The notes under the pieces were generated by a model. That model did not search any database and was not told the origin of the DNA. It saw only the letters and a list, made by a program, of their open reading frames with translations. A stretch of 30,333 nt of DNA from a virus, in IMG/VR virus record IMGVR_UViG_3300032092_001512, positions 1-30,333 of that record; one strand, given 5' to 3'. Shown piece after piece: positions 5,041 through 23,063 of the stretch. Both the position numbers and the translations under genes were made by a program. Every line of letters starts with the position of its first letter. Position 1 is the stretch's first letter.

Positions 5041-6099
5041 TTAATTCACCTGCCGCAGCGCATTGGCAATAACGGCTCGGCGATCCATTTGATTGACTGC
5101 ACCTGAGATGGCAGCGCCTGGCGCTCCCCTAACCTGTACAGCCGCTTGTTTTGCTTTCTGTACCTGATTCTGTGCGGCATAGTTTTGTTGCTGTTGAGCA
5201 TATAAACTTTGTGCCAATTGTGGATCAAGTCTTACAGCGGTTTCATATGCGATCTGCAATTTCTCGCGTTCCGACATATGACTAATGTCCCCTAAAACCT
5301 GCGGCGCTTGGAGAAGCGACAACATACGGTCTTGGACTGCCTCAAAGTGTGCGTTTGCGGGGTCGCTCGCAAACTGCTGGATTACAGAGAGTGCTCTGTT
5401 TTCATTTGTTTTCTGCGCTTCGTACTGGCTCTGCGTGATGTGTGCCGTGAGCTGCTGTACTTGTTGCGCTAATTGATTGTAATGCGAATCCTGCTGTTGT
5501 GGTGGTGCTTCGCCGCCAAAATAAGCCGCCACTTGCTCCAAAGGAATTTGGAACTGCTGAATCATCTGCGCTACCGCTTGGGACTTCTGTTGCGGTGTGC
5601 CTGTTCTCAGCAATGCCGCCGTTTGAAGCAATGGTGCAATTGCTTGCGCGGGTGTGGTGTTCTCGTTACGCAAAATCCACTCATAGGGCGCAAATTGCTC
5701 GGTAATGGCGCGAGCCTCAGCATCCCTTTGTTTGTATGTGCTAATGCCCTTTTCGTAATCGGCATCACGCTGGGCAAAGGCTTGCTGTAGTTCGGCTGGC
5801 GCTTTTTCCCAATGTTCTTTCAGCTCAAGGCGCAAGCTTTTGGGCATCTCAGCTCTAGGCTTGTCTGCCATCTGAGGCGCTTGGGTCTCTGCGGTGGGAA
5901 ACTTAGGTGCAAACTTACCGCCCTCGCGGGGCTGGCTTGCGGCGTGTTTACCACGGTTTGTCGGTGTCTTGGTTAACGCCTCGCGTATCGTATCGGCTCG
6001 GCTTTGCGGCTCTGCTGGCGCTGATTGAGGCGCTTCTACCGCTGGTGTTTCGGGTGCTGGTGTTTCTACTGTGTCGGGTGCGACAACTTCGTTTTCCAT
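5041..6099 (-). CDS. Capsid assembly scaffold protein
   Basis: The 352-residue protein starts with an acidic, Pro/Glu/Ala-rich disordered segment (about 1-40), has a basic stretch around PTNRGKHAASQPREGGKFAP, and then a long Gln/Ala-rich helical region (about 75-330) with many QQ pairs. This is the usual make-up of internal scaffolds that template the procapsid and leave before packaging is complete. It lies immediately before the major capsid gene. The ATG at 6099 overlaps the preceding TGA by one base (TGATG) with AAGGA upstream; a GTG one codon earlier (6102) is an equal alternative. No protease motif is visible, so it probably exits without self-cleavage. Confidence 0.8.
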   Translation of the reverse strand: MENEVVAPDTVETPAPETPAVEAPQSAPAEPQSRADTIREALTKTPTNRGKHAASQPREGGKFAPKFPTAETQAPQMADKPRAEMPKSLRLELKEHWEKAPAELQQAFAQRDADYEKGISTYKQRDAEARAITEQFAPYEWILRNENTTPAQAIAPLLQTAALLRTGTPQQKSQAVAQMIQQFQIPLEQVAAYFGGEAPPQQQDSHYNQLAQQVQQLTAHITQSQYEAQKTNENRALSVIQQFASDPANAHFEAVQDRMLSLLQAPQVLGDISHMSEREKLQIAYETAVRLDPQLAQSLYAQQQQNYAAQNQVQKAKQAAVQVRGAPGAAISGAVNQMDRRAVIANALRQVN

Positions 6100-6521
6100 C
6101 ACTTCATCCTTTTCATTTGTTCCAAAGTCATTTTGATCATCTCCTTGCGCTCGGGCATGGGACGGTTGTGTAGGCGGTTAGCCATCTCTACGTTGAGGTT
6201 AGACATCTTAACAGGGGCTATCGGTGCGCCTGGTCGATCAAACTCTTGCACCATTTGCACCTGACCACGCAATCGGTCTCGGTGCGCCTCTTTCTTTTTG
6301 TTCCATTCGGCTTGAGCATATTTAACGTCAGAATGCCCCATCTCGATTGAATCGGTGCGCTTGAGGTGGTCACGCCATTGCTTGCGACCCTCAATCATTA
6401 CGCCATCAGGTGACATAAAAGGCGCTATGTCACCCATGACCGTTGTATATTCAGCAGAATGACCTGCTGTCTTTTCGTATGGCTCGCTGCCATCTGATGG
6501 GAAAACCCAAGTTCTTCTCAC
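6099..6521 (-). CDS. Conserved head-module protein of unknown function, 140 aa
   Basis: A small, mainly helical, charged protein with a Tyr/Pro-containing N-terminus (MRRTWVFPSDGSEPYEK) and Met-rich helical C-terminus (MTLEQMKRMK). It sits in the chain between portal and scaffold, overlapping the gene before it by GTGA and the scaffold start by one base. The start is GTG: the nearby ATG belongs to the neighbour's last codon, and GGAG lies five bases upstream. I do not recognise a defined family; a minor assembly role is suggested only by its fixed place in the head operon. Confidence 0.72.
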   Translation of the reverse strand: MRRTWVFPSDGSEPYEKTAGHSAEYTTVMGDIAPFMSPDGVMIEGRKQWRDHLKRTDSIEMGHSDVKYAQAEWNKKKEAHRDRLRGQVQMVQEFDRPGAPIAPVKMSNLNVEMANRLHNRPMPERKEMIKMTLEQMKRMK

Positions 6522-14672: not shown

Positions 14673-14928
14673 TCATTCTCCTGCGTAAATCGTTGGCTAC
14701 CGCTGTTCCACGCCGCCTCTCTATATCTGAGTAAACCTGCCACCACCATGCCGATGCTTTGATTTTCCCAAGGTCTCTCGCTTTCCTGCGGTATCTCGCT
14801 ACCCACTCCCGCGCTTCCATCGTCCTCATAGTCTCCAGTAAGTCTAAGCGCTGCTGTGGTGTCAGCGTAGCTAAGTTGACGGGCTTCTTTGTGTTGGTCA
14901 AGAAGTCTATTTGCTTGTTGTCGGTCAT
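14650..14928 (-). CDS. Conserved small phage protein, 92 aa
   Basis: A basic helical protein whose core (RTMEAREWVARYRRKARDLG, followed by KIKASAWWWQVYSDIERRRG) resembles short phage proteins near replication genes, in which an ExR..W arrangement is followed by an RRG tail; I cannot name a function. The ATG overlaps the methyltransferase stop by ATGA. The second long frame in this stretch (14669-14932) is treated as a shadow because it has no such signal. Confidence 0.7.
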   Translation of the reverse strand: MTDNKQIDFLTNTKKPVNLATLTPQQRLDLLETMRTMEAREWVARYRRKARDLGKIKASAWWWQVYSDIERRRGTAVANDLRRRMNEIRGES

Positions 14929-15659
14929 TCACTTAGGATTCTCCATGCTGTTGCCGCCACAATTGGAATTTGTCCATTTCCAAGGCATTCAGACTGGCCC
15001 ACCCATTCGGCCATCCCATCACCCAATAAATCCATGCCACGCTTGGAATCTTCCCATGATTGGCAGTCATCCAATAAGCTATTGAATTCCTGTGCATTCC
15101 AAACGTGCTTTTTAATACTGATTCCTTGCGAAACCTTAGAAATTTGAAATGATCTGTTTTTAGCGGGGTCGGATGCGACAATCCAAATTCTGTCCCTTGA
15201 ATGTGATGCGCCAAGTTCTTGACCTCCCAAAACTCCCCATTTCGCATCAAACCCCATTGAGGCCAAGTCTCCAAGAACTCGTCCAAGTCCCCTAGAAGTG
15301 AGCATTGGTGAGTTTTCCACAAAGACGTATCTTGGTCGTATTTCCCCAATGATGCGAGCCATTTCTTTCCACATTCCTGATCGTTCTCCATCAATTCCTG
15401 CGCCTTTTCCTGCGGAACTAATGTCTTGGCATGGAAATCCTCCAGATACAACGTCAACAATTCCTGCCCAAGGATTTCCGTCAAAGGTTTGTACGTCATC
15501 CCAAATTGGGAAAGGCGGGAGAATTCCGTCATTTTGTCGGGCGCACAATACGCTTGCTGGGTAGGCTTCCCATTCAACGGCGCAGACTGTTCGCCATCCA
15601 AGAAGTTTTCCCCCAAGTATTCCGCCACCAGCGCCTGCGAATAAAGCCAACTCATTCAA
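14925..15659 (-). CDS. dcm: C5-cytosine DNA methyltransferase (Dcm-like), compact
   Basis: The 244-residue enzyme carries the main m5C motifs: LALFAGAGGGILGGKLLGW (motif I, 4-22), SGGFPCQDIS (motif IV, 72-81; catalytic Cys77), VFVENSPML (motif VI, 112-120), HSRDRIWIV (motif VIII, 153-161) and GNGQIPIVAATAW (motif X, 227-239). The target-recognition region between VIII and X is only about 65 residues, short for the family. It methylates cytosine in phage (or host) DNA, most likely to escape restriction; no partner restriction gene is seen. The start is TTG, in a TTGA overlap; an ATG four bases downstream opens a different frame (see 14933-15655). Confidence 0.88.
   Translation of the reverse strand: MNELALFAGAGGGILGGKLLGWRTVCAVEWEAYPASVLCARQNDGILPPFPIWDDVQTFDGNPWAGIVDVVSGGFPCQDISSAGKGAGIDGERSGMWKEMARIIGEIRPRYVFVENSPMLTSRGLGRVLGDLASMGFDAKWGVLGGQELGASHSRDRIWIVASDPAKNRSFQISKVSQGISIKKHVWNAQEFNSLLDDCQSWEDSKRGMDLLGDGMAEWVGQSECLGNGQIPIVAATAWRILSE
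14933..15655 (-). CDS. Full-length overlapping reading frame inside dcm (WPTP/MGWP-type protein)
   Basis: This 240-codon frame lies on the same strand as dcm, shifted by one, and covers 98 percent of it. It opens with ATG at 15655, eight bases after a GAGGGGG ribosome site, a better start than the TTG of dcm. Its product does not look random: MSWLYSQALVAEYLGENFLD, KYDQDTSLWKT (105-115), ETWPQWGLMRNGEFWE (129-144), HPTP (161-164) and VMGWPNGWASLNALEMDKFQ (212-231) match, from memory, a set of methylase-associated proteins with WPTP and MGWP motifs. It may be a real protein, part of a frameshift fusion, or an echo of dcm constraint. Function unknown. Confidence 0.5.
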   Translation of the reverse strand: MSWLYSQALVAEYLGENFLDGEQSAPLNGKPTQQAYCAPDKMTEFSRLSQFGMTYKPLTEILGQELLTLYLEDFHAKTLVPQEKAQELMENDQECGKKWLASLGKYDQDTSLWKTHQCSLLGDLDEFLETWPQWGLMRNGEFWEVKNLAHHIQGTEFGLSHPTPLKTDHFKFLRFRKESVLKSTFGMHRNSIAYWMTANHGKIPSVAWIYWVMGWPNGWASLNALEMDKFQLWRQQHGES

Positions 15660-19086: not shown

Positions 19087-19372
19087 AGCTAGGGGTCTTG
19101 ACCCCTCAACCAGCCACGCCGCCGCAGATCAATCCATAGACCTTGCCAAGCAGCACTTTGAAAAGATTGTTGAGTGCCTGCGCCGCTTTGGGCCAATGGG
19201 CAAAGATGGCATTGCCGAGCTGGTGGGGCTTGATGGTAATCAAGTCGCTAGGCGCATGAAAGAGCTTGAGAAAGATGGGCGGGTAGAGCTTACAGGGCGT
19301 ACCACCAAGTCCAACTCAGGCAGGTCAGAAAGAGAATGGCAGTTTGTGCCGGTACAGCAGGAGTTAATTTGA
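19070..19372 (+). CDS. Winged-helix DNA-binding protein
   Basis: The 100-residue product starts MTYLFRARGLDPSTSHAAAD, including the DPSTSHxAA phrase frequent in small phage regulators. It continues with FEKIVECLRRFGPMGKDGIA, then ELVGLDGNQVARRMKELEKD and a wing GRVELTGRTTKSNSGRSERE. This is a MarR/DprA-C-like winged helix. The ATG at 19070 is preferred because the family phrase starts just after it; in-frame TTG at 18998 lies wholly within the previous gene. It overlaps the SSB-like gene by 17 bases. It may regulate early genes or take part in replication. Confidence 0.77.
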   Translation: MTYLFRARGLDPSTSHAAADQSIDLAKQHFEKIVECLRRFGPMGKDGIAELVGLDGNQVARRMKELEKDGRVELTGRTTKSNSGRSEREWQFVPVQQELI

Positions 19373-20001
19373 GCTATCTTGTTTCATCATTACCACCCAT
19401 GAAATGCTTTGTAAAGGCTGAGTTTCTCTACAACCACACCAAAAGGCATGGCGAGCTTGTGCCTTGCGTGTGGGTCAGCCTTAAAGCCCTTAGAGGCCAA
19501 GTGTTTAGGATTGAGTCGTTGCTGACCGAATACGGCGCTTTGTATGACAAGCTACCCATCCATGCCTATGTGTGGAAAGAGGGCGCTAGTGACTTGCCTG
19601 TGGACATTCTGCAATTGTGGGACTGCATGGGCTATCGGTTTACCATCATTGAGAAAATTGGCTTGCGTAACTTGGGCGTTAAGTTTCTTGGCAAGGATAA
19701 GCAATGGCACTTTGGTACATACCTGTTTACCGTGGATTTCTGTGCTGATGGCATGGATTTGGATACTGGTTTCACAGAGACCGCCGAGGAGCATAAGAGC
19801 TTTAACTTCATTAAACTTGAGTCAGGTCAGTTTGCTTGCCAGCCCAATAATCGATGTTTGTGGTATGACCAAAGCCTTGTGCCTAGCGAGACCAAGTTTC
19901 CCGATTTCCAAGCCGCGCAACATTTGTGGTCGGTGGATGGCACACGCAAGTGGTCAGCTGGTGACGATTGGTTTTACACAATAGAGGAAAAAAGTGACTG
20001 A
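19369..20001 (+). CDS. Conserved phage protein of unknown function, 210 aa
   Basis: The protein contains PPMKCFVKAEFLYNH, HGELVPCVWVSLKALRGQVF, EYGALYDKLPI, LQLWDCMGYRFTIIEK, KDKQWHFGTYLFTVD and QPNNRCLWYDQSLVP, a set of Trp/Tyr-rich blocks I associate with a widespread but uncharacterised phage family. TTG at 19369 is selected: AGGAG lies five bases upstream and it overlaps the prior stop as TTGA, whereas ATG at 19336 is inside the winged-helix gene without a ribosome site. No catalytic motif is evident. Confidence 0.8.
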   Translation: MSYLVSSLPPMKCFVKAEFLYNHTKRHGELVPCVWVSLKALRGQVFRIESLLTEYGALYDKLPIHAYVWKEGASDLPVDILQLWDCMGYRFTIIEKIGLRNLGVKFLGKDKQWHFGTYLFTVDFCADGMDLDTGFTETAEEHKSFNFIKLESGQFACQPNNRCLWYDQSLVPSETKFPDFQAAQHLWSVDGTRKWSAGDDWFYTIEEKSD

Positions 20002-20191: not shown

Positions 20192-20295
20192 TTGCAACAA
20201 TCTTCGCTTTAGCCATAGGCGCAGTTATTGGGATCGGTACGATAGTGCTGATTGCATACGTTCTAGCGTTTCTTCAAGACGTTGATAAAAACTAG
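20188..20295 (+). CDS. 35-residue single-span membrane protein
   Basis: MIATIFALAIGAVIGIGTIV continues LIAYVLAFLQDVDKN: one long hydrophobic helix (3-28) with a GxxxG-like motif and a short acidic-basic tail. The ATG overlaps the previous stop (ATGA) and AGGAG lies upstream. It is the last plus-strand gene of the operon, and its TAG overlaps the endolysin stop by four bases in tail-to-tail orientation, leaving no room for a separate terminator. Confidence 0.68.
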   Translation: MIATIFALAIGAVIGIGTIVLIAYVLAFLQDVDKN

Positions 20296-20720
20296 GCGTA
20301 TGCCCTTGTGCCTTGTTTGTCAATGATCAATGCCATTTTGCGTGGCTTGACATTGGCAGAATTGGAGATTGAAACGTGCGTCCAGCGGTCAAATTCGCGG
20401 ATAACTTGATCATAGGGTAAGTCAGATTTAATGATGGCGCTCACCACCTCATTGGGGGTCATGCCTGGCACTCTAATATCAGCCGCGCAAGCACGTCTAT
20501 GTTGTGATTTGTCACTCGAACCCACCGCATCATTTACAGCTTTTGACCTAAATGCGCTATTAATCATGATCGGCTTGCCGCCCAAGACTTTCTTTAATTG
20601 CTCAAGAAACTCAGCTAAACGGCGCAAATTGGCTAATTCTTCATTATTTGGCGTATTGTCAAGCGTACGGTGGTCAGTATGCGTAAGTTCTTCAAGGGTA
20701 AAATTAGGCGTTAAGTTCAT
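20292..20720 (-). CDS. Endolysin, peptidase M15 type
   Basis: The 142-residue protein has the M15_3/VanY-like fold: FTLEELTHTDHRTLDNTPNN, then NSAFRSKAVNDAVGSSDKSQ and the zinc motif SQHRRACAAD (72-81; His74 and Asp81), with WTHVSIS (113-119; His115) as third ligand. Such enzymes cleave peptidoglycan stem peptides (D-Ala or L-Ala-D-Glu bonds). There is no signal peptide, so it needs a holin. The ATG at 20720 has AGGA five bases upstream; an in-frame GTG at 20744 is less likely. It stands apart from the spanin genes, separated by four genes, one of which points the other way. Confidence 0.87.
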   Translation of the reverse strand: MNLTPNFTLEELTHTDHRTLDNTPNNEELANLRRLAEFLEQLKKVLGGKPIMINSAFRSKAVNDAVGSSDKSQHRRACAADIRVPGMTPNEVVSAIIKSDLPYDQVIREFDRWTHVSISNSANVKPRKMALIIDKQGTRAYA

Positions 20721-20737: not shown

Positions 20738-20766
20738 TTGTCACAATTTACTTGTAGCATTTTACT
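20738..20766 (+). promoter_or_regulatory. Promoter of the acidic moron gene
   Basis: TTGTCA (20738-20743) and TTTACT (20761-20766) are separated by exactly 17 bases, with the AAGGGA ribosome site and ATG at 20797 following. The sequence TTTACTTG occurs twice (around 20748 and 20761). The -10 is weak (four of six), so the call is moderate. Confidence 0.5.
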
Positions 20767-20796
20767 TGGCAATCACGCCATAACAAGGGAAACATC

Positions 20797-21087
20797 ATGT
20801 ACAAAATTGAAATTAACATTGCAGAGTGGGAATTTGGAGATGACTCAGTAACTATTAAGACAGATGATTTTGACAAGATCGCAATCATTCAAGAATTCAT
20901 CGAATTCCAACAATTGCACGGCTGGTGCGTTGACTATGACGTTACTGATGAGTACGAATACAACCAATGCGATGAAGAAGTCAGCGAAGACGAAGACGAA
21001 ACCGATGAAGACGAAGAATCCGAAGAATACGAAATCGGAGAGACCGTAGAAGACGAAGATGGTATTGTGTGGGAACGTGTGGCATAA
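20797..21087 (+). CDS. Extremely acidic protein (DNA-mimic candidate), lone plus-strand gene
   Basis: Of 96 residues, 37 are Asp or Glu and only four are Lys or Arg. Residues 1-50 look folded (MYKIEINIAEWEFGDDSVTI and EFIEFQQLHGWCVDYDV), while 58-90 is almost continuous acid (for example EEVSEDEDETDEDEESEEYE). No membrane span. AGGGA precedes the ATG. Surrounding genes all point the other way, and the gene has its own promoter and terminator. Charge and size recall DNA mimics that block restriction or other DNA-binding proteins (Ocr, Arn, Gam types), but there is no sequence match I can claim; a packaging or nucleoid role is also possible. Confidence 0.82.
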   Translation: MYKIEINIAEWEFGDDSVTIKTDDFDKIAIIQEFIEFQQLHGWCVDYDVTDEYEYNQCDEEVSEDEDETDEDEESEEYEIGETVEDEDGIVWERVA

Positions 21088-21107
21088 TTTTTATGCAGTT
21101 GTCTTTA

Positions 21108-21133
21108 GGGGGGTCTTCGGACTCCCCTTTTTT
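21108..21133 (+). terminator. UUCG-loop terminator of the acidic gene
   Basis: GGGGGGTC (21108-21115) and GACTCCCC (21120-21127) form an eight-pair stem with one G-U pair, closed by the very stable TTCG tetraloop and followed by six T (21128-21133). It ends plus-strand transcription; the T-run also contains the stop of the converging minus-strand gene. Confidence 0.9.
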
Positions 21134-21344
21134 ATTCAATGTCGTGATCTGCTTCAATGTCCCTAGCTAACTGCCGCCAATCAAGACTGCGGCGGTATAA
21201 CGTGTATATACGTTCTTCACTCAAAGGCTCAGATCGGCGGTTAAGTCTGTCATTTGCTTGCGCTAAAGCAAGCTGCGTTTCATACAATATGTTATGCAGT
21301 TCTTTGATCTCTGATCTTAGATAAGCAACAAGGTCATACGTCAT
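21132..21344 (-). CDS. Small helical phage protein, 70 aa
   Basis: MTYDLVAYLRSEIKELHNIL, followed by YETQLALAQANDRLNRRSEP, is a likely coiled coil; the C-terminal half has a helix with LYRRSLDWRQLARDIEADHD. The ATG at 21344 has AGGGG eight bases upstream and overlaps the metallophosphoesterase stop by 11 bases. A longer frame from 21419 is rejected because it lies inside the previous gene. No function known. Confidence 0.72.
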   Translation of the reverse strand: MTYDLVAYLRSEIKELHNILYETQLALAQANDRLNRRSEPLSEERIYTLYRRSLDWRQLARDIEADHDIE

Positions 21345-22299
21345 AAACCGTACCCCTAAATTCAATTTGATTCTCAGACCATTTATGCACCAGCTCGGGC
21401 CACAGCAGCTTGCCCTCATGAAACGTCAGTACCGCAAACCCTGACCGCCAGTTGGTTGGCGAATCCTCAAGGTAGTTCATAAACTGAGGGCCGCCAGGCT
21501 CTGCCAATGTGCCTGTATCCACGCCAAATCTGTTACCGTTATAGTCGGCAAAGGGCGTTACTTTTAGGCTGTGCAAATGACCTGTGACAATTGTCACTCC
21601 AGCATTTACAGTATTGTTGTGTGTAGCGTGTACACCACCTTTCCAACGATGTTTAACAGCAACATTCTCTGTAGGCCAACATGACCAACATGGCTCCCAC
21701 GCTGGAAAATGATCTTTTAGCGTAAAACCTTTAACAAACTCATATTGCGGTGCGTTGGCAGCTAAACGCGTTTCAAACCGTGCATCGTGATTTCCTAACG
21801 TGAATACTAGCTTTACATTGCTTCTTGCTTTTTTAGCTGTATCTTCAATTTCACCTAAAGCAATTTCGCAAGCCTTTAGCTCTTGGATTACTGATGGCGT
21901 TGAATCCCATCCAATGCGAGGATAGCGAGAAATACTAGCGCCATCAAATATATCTCCATTGGCAATAACGGCCTTTGGCTGAAACTCTTTAATTGCCCAA
22001 AGAAGACCCTTATACGCTGTCGTATGTATGCCTGGCCAAAAGTGAGCATCGCTAAAAACCAAAACAACGCCATTTTCAATCCCCAATTCTTTGCGAGCTG
22101 AATTATTGGGTTTTGCAACCATCTTAACTACGTTTGATTTTTGATGCAAAGTGATGCCATATCTAGCTTCTAAATTGCTTTTGCGTCTGAGAATATTACG
22201 CAAGTCCATGCCAACGGCTTTTGCCATTGCAGCACCTGATTCATACGTATTCCAAAGCTCGACAAACTCTTGATCGCTGTAAACAGGTTTTCCTGACAT
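21334..22299 (-). CDS. Calcineurin-like metallophosphoesterase with N-terminal HTH
   Basis: The 321-residue enzyme has all five metal motifs: FSDAHFWPG (Asp84, His86), NGDIFDG (Asp116), LGNHDAR (Asn170, His171), a later GGVHATHNNT histidine and TGHLHSL. The first 60 residues (YSDQEFVELWNTYESGAAMA, followed by KAVGMDLRNILRRKSNLEAR) look like a helix-turn-helix that picks out a nucleic acid or partner. Phage members hydrolyse phosphodiesters or nucleotides; the substrate here is open. GGAG lies five bases before the ATG. It sits between lysis genes and the moron, an uncommon place for such an enzyme. Confidence 0.87.
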   Translation of the reverse strand: MSGKPVYSDQEFVELWNTYESGAAMAKAVGMDLRNILRRKSNLEARYGITLHQKSNVVKMVAKPNNSARKELGIENGVVLVFSDAHFWPGIHTTAYKGLLWAIKEFQPKAVIANGDIFDGASISRYPRIGWDSTPSVIQELKACEIALGEIEDTAKKARSNVKLVFTLGNHDARFETRLAANAPQYEFVKGFTLKDHFPAWEPCWSCWPTENVAVKHRWKGGVHATHNNTVNAGVTIVTGHLHSLKVTPFADYNGNRFGVDTGTLAEPGGPQFMNYLEDSPTNWRSGFAVLTFHEGKLLWPELVHKWSENQIEFRGTVYDV

Positions 22300-22377
22300 G
22301 ACAACTCCAATAAAGTTGCCTAAAATTAAACTATATCAATGACAACAGCATGAATCTTAATGTAATTTGTTTGCAGT

Positions 22378-22593
22378 TTAATAAATAACGTTGTATTTAT
22401 CTTGTTTTTTCTCTAGCTTAATTTCCATATCTATGCAAATTGCTTCAACTGTATTGCCCTGCTTGGTAATTTCAATTTTTTGTTGAGCTATTTCTTGTTC
22501 GCACTTTTGCTTGTCTAGGGTGTAAATCTCGGATTGAAAAAACTTACATTCCATCGCTATACAGATATAAAGCAATGGAATATAGATGGTCAT
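22378..22593 (-). CDS. Small membrane-anchored coiled-coil protein, 71 aa
   Basis: MTIYIPLLYICIAMECKFFQ is a short N-terminal hydrophobic anchor, followed by a Glu/Lys/Gln-rich helix (CEQEIAQQKIEITKQG, then DMEIKLEKKQDKYNVIY). It overlaps the end of the Rz-like gene by ATGA, so it is co-translated with the spanins and may modulate lysis; no family is recognised. The cysteines at 11, 16, 31 and 53 are unusual for such a small protein. Confidence 0.65.
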   Translation of the reverse strand: MTIYIPLLYICIAMECKFFQSEIYTLDKQKCEQEIAQQKIEITKQGNTVEAICIDMEIKLEKKQDKYNVIY

Positions 22594-23063
22594 TTCATGT
22601 CCCTCATTTCGTTGTATTGGTCAATACAGGCGTTAAGGCTGCGGATGGCTTGGTCGCCTCGGCTGGTGAGATCGATAAGAGATTCAGCAATTCTTGGGTC
22701 AAGCTCGGCTCTTGTTTCTGTATCTCCAACGGCAGGGGTGGCATCTGTGGGGGCTTGTAGGGGGCAGTCGGGGGCTTGGATAGGAACGAACAGCCGTAGC
22801 TTGCTAGACACAATATCATTGCGTAACTTAGCCTCTTTAACCTTTGCAACATCATTGGCCTTTCTTAGTGTTTGTCCATACGTCTGAGCCACTTGCGCCA
22901 TTACTTGCTCAGTTTCCCTAGCCTTGGCGTTTAATGCGGCTATTTCAATCTGCTGACGGTCATGCTCATTATCTTGACCTTTTGTGTACGATACCGCACC
23001 AACGCCCAAAAAAGCACAAATAAGGGCAAGTAATACCCAAGGATTAAATAGGCTTAACATCAT
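22590..23063 (-). CDS. Rz: Rz-like inner-membrane spanin
   Basis: The 157-residue protein starts with a single hydrophobic anchor (LFNPWVLLALICAFLGVGAV, 5-24), then a periplasmic coiled coil rich in Ala, Glu, Gln and Lys (about 30-80), the typical i-spanin design. It joins with the lipoprotein Rz1, whose gene lies wholly inside it in another frame, to fuse inner and outer membranes at the end of lysis. The C-terminal part (CPLQAPTDATP...AIRSLNACIDQYNEMRDMK) resembles DUF2514-type spanins. It overlaps the upstream two-span gene by 20 bases. Confidence 0.82.
   Translation of the reverse strand: MMLSLFNPWVLLALICAFLGVGAVSYTKGQDNEHDRQQIEIAALNAKARETEQVMAQVAQTYGQTLRKANDVAKVKEAKLRNDIVSSKLRLFVPIQAPDCPLQAPTDATPAVGDTETRAELDPRIAESLIDLTSRGDQAIRSLNACIDQYNEMRDMK
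22604..22855 (-). CDS. Rz1: Rz1-like outer-membrane spanin lipoprotein, nested in Rz
   Basis: This 83-residue frame lies entirely within the Rz-like gene, shifted by one, as in lambda. It has a lipoprotein-like start (RLKRLSYAMILCLASYGC, with candidate lipid Cys22; the lipobox is imperfect at -2/-3) and then the proline-rich stretch SKPPTAPYKPPQMPPLPLE that marks Rz1 proteins. It would be anchored in the outer membrane and pair with Rz. The long tail (about 40 residues after the proline region) makes it larger than lambda Rz1. Confidence 0.78.
   Translation of the reverse strand: MMLQRLKRLSYAMILCLASYGCSFLSKPPTAPYKPPQMPPLPLEIQKQEPSLTQELLNLLSISPAEATKPSAALTPVLTNTTK

Follow-up and report, generated by a model that had tools for sequence, protein, structure and literature searches.

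What is the role of a small, extremely acidic protein whose gene stands on the plus strand between an endolysin gene and a metallophosphoesterase gene that are both read the other way? The question is raised by one locus in the window, the whole 30,333-nucleotide stretch of viral DNA analysed here. We refer to the gene and its product as AC and to the neighbouring HTH-metallophosphoesterase as MPE; the features of the locus are collected in Table 1. A preliminary description had taken AC for a moron-like, independently controlled unit and its product for a possible DNA mimic. The coordinates and composition given there for a single plus-strand open reading frame, with 37 acidic residues (D/E) and 4 basic ones (K/R) among 96, are exact.

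Table 1. Positions of the AC unit, the MPE operon and the flanking lysis genes in the window
Feature	Position	Strand	Remarks
M15-type endolysin, left flank	20292..20720	-	PHROG 894, E 2.5e-38
TGTCA box, AC promoter	20739..20743	+	TGTCA present in 104/107 distinct AC leaders
TAnnnT -10-like hexamer, TAGCAT	20755..20760	+	exactly 11 bp past the TGTCA box
AC leader hairpin/dyad, TGGC-AATCAC-GCCA	20767..20780	+	at the expected mRNA 5' end
Shine-Dalgarno of AC, AAGGG	20785..20789	+	unpaired in predicted leader fold; relatives keep AAGGGG
AC gene, 96-aa acidic protein	20797..21087	+	residues 1-57 conserved, 58-75 variable D/E linker, 76-96 conserved
GCAGTTG motif, AC 3' UTR	21095..21101	+	in 73/96 distinct AC 3' UTRs, distant ones included
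Intrinsic terminator of AC	21107..21133	+	from predicted fold; conserved in relatives
70-aa protein	21132..21344	-	start overlaps MPE end; adjoins AC in most loci (identity among these 75-97%)
MPE	21334..22299	-	PF00149, E 7.6e-7; PHROG 221, E 1.2e-29; HTH-like N-terminus
MPE leader hairpin, GGCAACTTTATTGGAGTTGTC	22300..22320	-	pairs the Shine-Dalgarno region
MPE promoter	22323..22344	-	TGTCA (22340-22344), 11 bp, TAATTT (22323-22328)
Rz-like spanin, right flank	22590..23063	-	PHROG 2466, E 1.7e-17

Comparison with relatives indicates that AC is a true gene and not a chance reading frame, because at least 221 relatives are found in IMG/VR contigs and the gene is under purifying selection (pN/pS 0.33 overall; by part, N-terminal 0.30, linker 0.61 and C-terminal 0.31). 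The acidity is kept in all 125 distinct relatives, each of which has at least 30% D/E (mean 37% D/E and 4.4% K/R). No relatives were found in named phages (tblastn of 50,697 phage records, E up to 1) or in GTDB genomes, and searches of Pfam, PHROGs, PADLOC, NCBIfam and the sequences of the PDB returned weak, unrelated matches only. As far as these searches show, the AC family is undescribed, and so are two features discussed below, the exchange of MPE subfamilies beside AC and the promoter class that the two genes share.

The relatives also divide the protein into parts. Residues 1-57 are well conserved (IEI..IETxDFDKIAIIQEFIEFQ..HGWCVDYD), and the D/E-rich stretch that follows is an internal linker, variable in both length and sequence, which leads into a conserved EYEIGEIVEDEDGIVWERV end. 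In the 83-residue AC of locus L347 the linker is almost gone and both ends are kept; a distant group (L209, L213, L215 and L216) has a different end beyond the acidic stretch. The supposed acidic tail is in fact this linker with its conserved end. An AlphaFold model of AC, of modest confidence (mean pLDDT 71, and 73 for the L347 protein), comprises two strands and a helix (residues 2-7, 17-22 and 25-40); the linker is modelled with low confidence, and the chain ends in a hairpin. When two AC models were searched with Foldseek/VIA, the best BFVD match was A0A6J5LQI9 of an uncultured Caudovirales (38-40% identity, E 0.03), which is probably a relative. The top PDB fold match, to protein G B1, is weak (Z 2.5-3.5), and we read it as no more than a common beta-beta-alpha arrangement.

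Structure prediction and comparison with known mimics had been proposed as a check on DNA mimicry, and the result is divided. The N-terminal part of the window protein has a net charge of -12, and AC as a whole has the small size and strong net negative charge expected of a mimic; since acidic positions in the N-terminal part are also conserved, nucleic-acid mimicry by this predicted folded part is possible. The most acidic segment of the protein is the low-complexity, length-variable one that is nearly lost in L347. Among fold matches the best reached Z 3.5 and none exceeded it; no PDB sequence matched at E below 4, and none of 35 family members matched a PADLOC model. These sequence, PADLOC and fold searches thus did not bear out the proposal of a DNA mimic with an anti-defence function, and together with a search of the literature they gave no evidence of an anti-defence role for AC.

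Conserved, predicted transcription signals of its own, a TGTCA-N11-TAnnnT leader and an intrinsic terminator, enclose AC. The gene had been credited with its own -35 and -10; a consensus scan of the plus strand at 20738-20760 found no sigma70 promoter (TTGACA-like -35, 16-18 bp, TATAAT-like -10), and what stands there is the TGTCA element, with TAnnnT at the 11-bp spacer in 102 of the 104 distinct AC leaders that have TGTCA. Compared by eye, the consensus sequences for sigma54, sigma32 and FliA do not fit either. Just past the hexamer lies a short stem, found at a distance of 4-7 nt in 76 of 78 AC leaders, against a mean of 3.6 and a maximum of 8 in shuffled sequences. Its arms covary (TGGCA/TGCCA, TGCGG/CCGCA, GTACGG/CCGTAC, ACAGC/GCTGT), as would fit an RNA stem or a DNA dyad alike, and the window's own copy is weak (-5.2 kcal/mol, z -0.9). 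A repeated, sequence-specific repressor operator is an unlikely interpretation of the dyad, which has one copy in the window and arms that differ between groups. At the other end of the unit, the UUCG-tetraloop terminator noted earlier holds up well: its 9-bp stem, UUCG loop and U-run (-16.5 kcal/mol, z -3.3) are equalled by no shuffle, and a similar terminator, usually with the loop UUAG, is kept 3' of AC in nearly all relatives. The unit has no match in Rfam.

The AC unit (20739-21133) fits between the endolysin gene and the MPE operon with a contact of at most a base or two on either side. Transcription only as antisense to the lysis genes, an outcome that the preliminary description had allowed for, is therefore unlikely. 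The unit had also been placed inside a leftward block; this is right for its immediate neighbours, the endolysin gene and the MPE operon, but genes read rightward come as close as about 500 bp on the left side, where their block ends at 20295. MPE itself has the complete motifs of a calcineurin-like metallophosphoesterase (DAH, GDIFD, GNHD and GHLH), which, like the HTH, were read from the sequence. For the 70-aa protein beside AC there is no accepted family match.

How the lysis genes are arranged in other phages helps to define what has been inserted. Among the 80 endolysin relatives that lie closest, AC and MPE occur together in 3, and the examined stretch of the other 77 has neither. In most of the relatives without AC and MPE the endolysin gene abuts Rz with an overlap of a few bases, although some flanks are too short, or some neighbours too diverged, to be named. 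Because of this overlap, AC, the 70-aa gene and MPE are best described, on comparative grounds, as a cassette that is present or absent between endolysin and Rz. When set against the criteria for phage morons (PMC2920897), AC shares the insertion between endolysin and Rz, its own transcription signals and occurrence in many phages; its GC content is slightly lower (0.409, versus 0.440 for MPE and 0.465 for the window), by a small difference. It differs from them in belonging to a cassette of at least two genes with divergently read, matching promoters, so that the extra material between otherwise adjacent genes is the cassette and not AC alone. The moron description is thus apt as regards independent predicted signals and variable presence, and perhaps GC content, but AC is half of an MPE cassette and not solitary.

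Two other places in the window are of separate interest. At 14933-15655 and 14925-15659, on the minus strand, a cytosine methyltransferase gene contains almost the whole of a 240-aa open reading frame, read from the same strand in a different frame. Each of the two frames matches a phage family (PHROG 363, E 5e-57; PHROG 1008, E 1e-14), and tblastn with the second gave matches in 40 GenBank phage records, 14 of them over most of its length; this is possibly an overprinted gene, or a pair of genes that are separate elsewhere. At 19336-20001 there is a match to PHROG 3704 'ferredoxin' (E 2.6e-73), a name that may be wrong, because Pfam finds nothing in 19399-20001.

Within the cassette, the tie between AC and MPE can be followed across many loci. 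MPE1, the type in PHROG 221 to which the window's enzyme belongs, adjoins AC in 110 of the 113 distinct AC loci whose sequence extends 1.6 kb or more to the right (109 convergent and one on the same strand). The order is endolysin-AC-MPE in 59 distinct loci and AC-MPE-endolysin in 20; thus the endolysin gene may lie to the left of AC or beyond MPE, while AC and MPE keep together as its position changes. In L215 and L216, AC comes directly past MPE on the same strand, in one operon, and has no box of its own. In L213 and L209, MPE1 is absent from the record and AC comes directly past a second HTH-metallophosphoesterase, MPE2 (PHROG 704, 'DNA repair exonuclease', E about 1e-124), which has no BLAST similarity to MPE1 (E 1.6). 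The adjacency therefore persists through a change of order, a change of strand and the replacement of MPE by a dissimilar HTH-metallophosphoesterase. In L212, a 9.6-kb fragment, AC is present and MPE was not seen. The AC-MPE loci thus show the conserved tie of an acidic gene to an enzyme gene that is expected of an enzyme-inhibitor pair.

Viewed from the side of the enzyme, the association is looser. AC accompanies every MPE1 relative that has at least 73% identity and a context longer than 900 bp; 13 of the 70 MPE1 loci with context are without it, and there the identity of MPE is 72% or less. Most members of PHROG 221 and PHROG 704 are without AC, and MPE2 occurs in 2047 GenBank phages, in three of which the neighbourhood was inspected and had no acidic gene. 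Since both MPE1 and MPE2 genes without AC exist, AC is, judged from gene content, accessory to MPE, and MPE does not appear to require it; such relatives weaken any strict dependence of the enzyme on AC. Some of the adjacency may also come from a shared insertion spot and common descent, because MPEs often lie near endolysins anyway. Literature searches combining metallophosphoesterase with moron or with anti-defence found nothing relevant.

Other genes were noticed at or near the place of AC. In L369, a sequence-unrelated acidic open reading frame (6057-6389, minus strand; about 110 aa, ~38% D/E, 1 basic residue) occupies the place of AC, convergent with an MPE1 relative and with a -10-like hexamer followed by a similar hairpin leader. 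Its alignment with AC by hhalign is not significant, and we regard it as a look-alike at the same place and not as a relative. In the distant AC group, a GNAT acetyltransferase-like gene is found near AC (L213 4357-4779, L215 4583-5011, L212 5200-5628), where it adjoins endolysin or MPE.

The promoter element of AC recurs in front of MPE. TGTCA is present in 83 of 106 distinct MPE1 leaders, and 70 have TAnnnT at 11 bp. In 3.04 Mb of phage DNA, a sample that is centred on AC, MPE and endolysin loci and covers other genome regions more thinly, TGTCA-N11-TAnnnT is found 268 times before AC (103 distinct), 188 times before MPE (70 distinct) and about 50 times elsewhere. A first-order Markov null leads one to expect 98-110 occurrences in total, and so the remaining ~50 are at or below background; in the window, the other two hits fall inside coding sequence. 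When leaders were sought by pattern, all 91 of AC type preceded AC; among the 80 of MPE type that were listed, 62 stand before MPE, 2 belong to truncated copies of the MPE leader, and the other 16 look like chance matches. This comparison shows that AC and MPE share one putative promoter class, separate from the lysis genes. In its geometry the element resembles the middle promoters of T4, in which the role of the -35 is taken by a MotA box lying 12 +/- 1 bp before the -10 (PMC2988021): in both, a conserved box sits in place of the -35, at about 11-13 bp on the upstream side of a sigma70-like -10. The boxes differ, however (TGTCA versus TGCTT in T4), and only AC and MPE carry the TGTCA element. 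MPE1 is unlikely to be the reader of the box, as L213, L214 and L209 keep TGTCA before AC and have no MPE1.

Downstream of this common element, the two leaders differ in design. In the predicted folds the Shine-Dalgarno of AC is open, whereas that of MPE lies inside a 9-bp stem (GGCAACTTC/GGAGTTGTC) whose arms show compensatory substitutions across relatives; translation of MPE is probably regulated, because its Shine-Dalgarno is folded away in this manner.

From the conserved neighbourhood and the common promoter we consider a functional link between AC and MPE probable. The explanation we favour, to which we give about an even chance, is that AC serves as the accessory protein in a small phage cassette centred on the HTH-metallophosphoesterase. 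Carrying a stem-loop close to either end and leaving its Shine-Dalgarno open, the mRNA of AC would yield abundant protein, and MPE, with its Shine-Dalgarno in a stem, would be made sparingly. AC would bind MPE, its negative surface standing in for a nucleic-acid or phosphodiester substrate, and once bound it would restrain or direct the enzyme in the manner of small acidic inhibitors. Barstar, the Im proteins and Ugi are inhibitors of this kind, small and acidic, that hold their enzymes. Direct binding of AC to MPE is a guess that we rate somewhat below an even chance, and inhibition of MPE is a more doubtful guess. The fullest form of the proposal, in which AC is a dedicated nucleic-acid-mimic inhibitor of two HTH-metallophosphoesterase subfamilies within a mobile two-gene regulon marked by the TGTCA promoter class and opposite leader designs (open versus buried Shine-Dalgarno), seems to us rather improbable.

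AC might instead be directed at the host, as a nucleic-acid mimic that is abundant after infection and blocks a restriction enzyme, RecBCD, RNA polymerase or a nucleoid protein; its place beside MPE would then reflect a moron cassette in which the two genes each serve fitness during infection. We think this unlikely, in about the same measure as the dedicated inhibitor just described. The strong acidity of every relative and the independent transcription unit agree with a host target, and so does the layout of a folded-looking N-terminus followed by a disordered acidic middle, which recalls Gp44 of SPO1, a small phage protein with a folded N-terminal part and, after it, a disordered and strongly acidic region by which it inhibits RNA polymerase (PMC8208478). 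Gp44, however, has 237 aa and a DNA-binding N-terminus, whereas AC has 96 aa, an acidic beta-beta-alpha N-terminus, a conserved C-terminal hairpin and the tie to MPE; any sequence relation between the two was judged from the family and PDB searches. T7 gp5.9 and lambda Gam, which inhibit RecBCD by DNA mimicry, are like AC small, very acidic phage proteins without family, and, as gp5.9 illustrates, mimics need share no sequence or fold (PMC9836394). They too differ from AC, gp5.9 being a parallel coiled coil and both being helical dimers, where AC is predicted to be mainly beta-beta-alpha with a disordered middle. A host target is also harder to reconcile with the lack of matches to solved mimics in sequence or to PADLOC models, with a variable acidic linker that is nearly absent in L347, and with the steady tie to HTH-metallophosphoesterases and the shared promoter, which call for a more specific partner.

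It is a little less probable again that AC and MPE are separate morons, brought together by a common insertion spot beside the lysis genes and by a promoter type that the host recognises, with AC in an unrelated role. MPEs do lie near endolysin genes in phages without AC, the gap between endolysin and Rz is clearly a variable site, and there are the 13 MPE1 loci that lack AC; yet the adjacency of the two genes survives a switch of the endolysin to the other side or a change of strand, and the promoter class that they share is not a feature of the other DNA sampled. Finally, the unit could be mainly RNA, its leader hairpin and 3' GCAGTTG forming a regulatory RNA that might, for example, open the MPE leader, with the protein secondary. 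The AC leader and 3' UTR are strongly conserved, and the latter is similar to the arm of the MPE leader that holds the Shine-Dalgarno, but predicted pairing between them is hardly better within the same locus (-9.90) than between swapped loci (-9.42). With the coding sequence under purifying selection and Rfam silent on the unit, we regard an RNA function of this kind as very improbable.

If the favoured explanation of AC as an accessory to MPE is right, its interest extends beyond this locus. AC is an orphan acidic family that is common among phages of fresh water and, it seems, missing from the databases searched, and MPE gives it a concrete candidate partner. The TGTCA-N11-TAnnnT promoter of the two genes suggests a transcription factor or type of sigma for which one can search. 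HTH-metallophosphoesterases related to MPE2 are present in about two thousand sequenced phages, and we found no proven role for them here; a natural accessory or inhibitor, if AC is one, would provide a handle on these enzymes.
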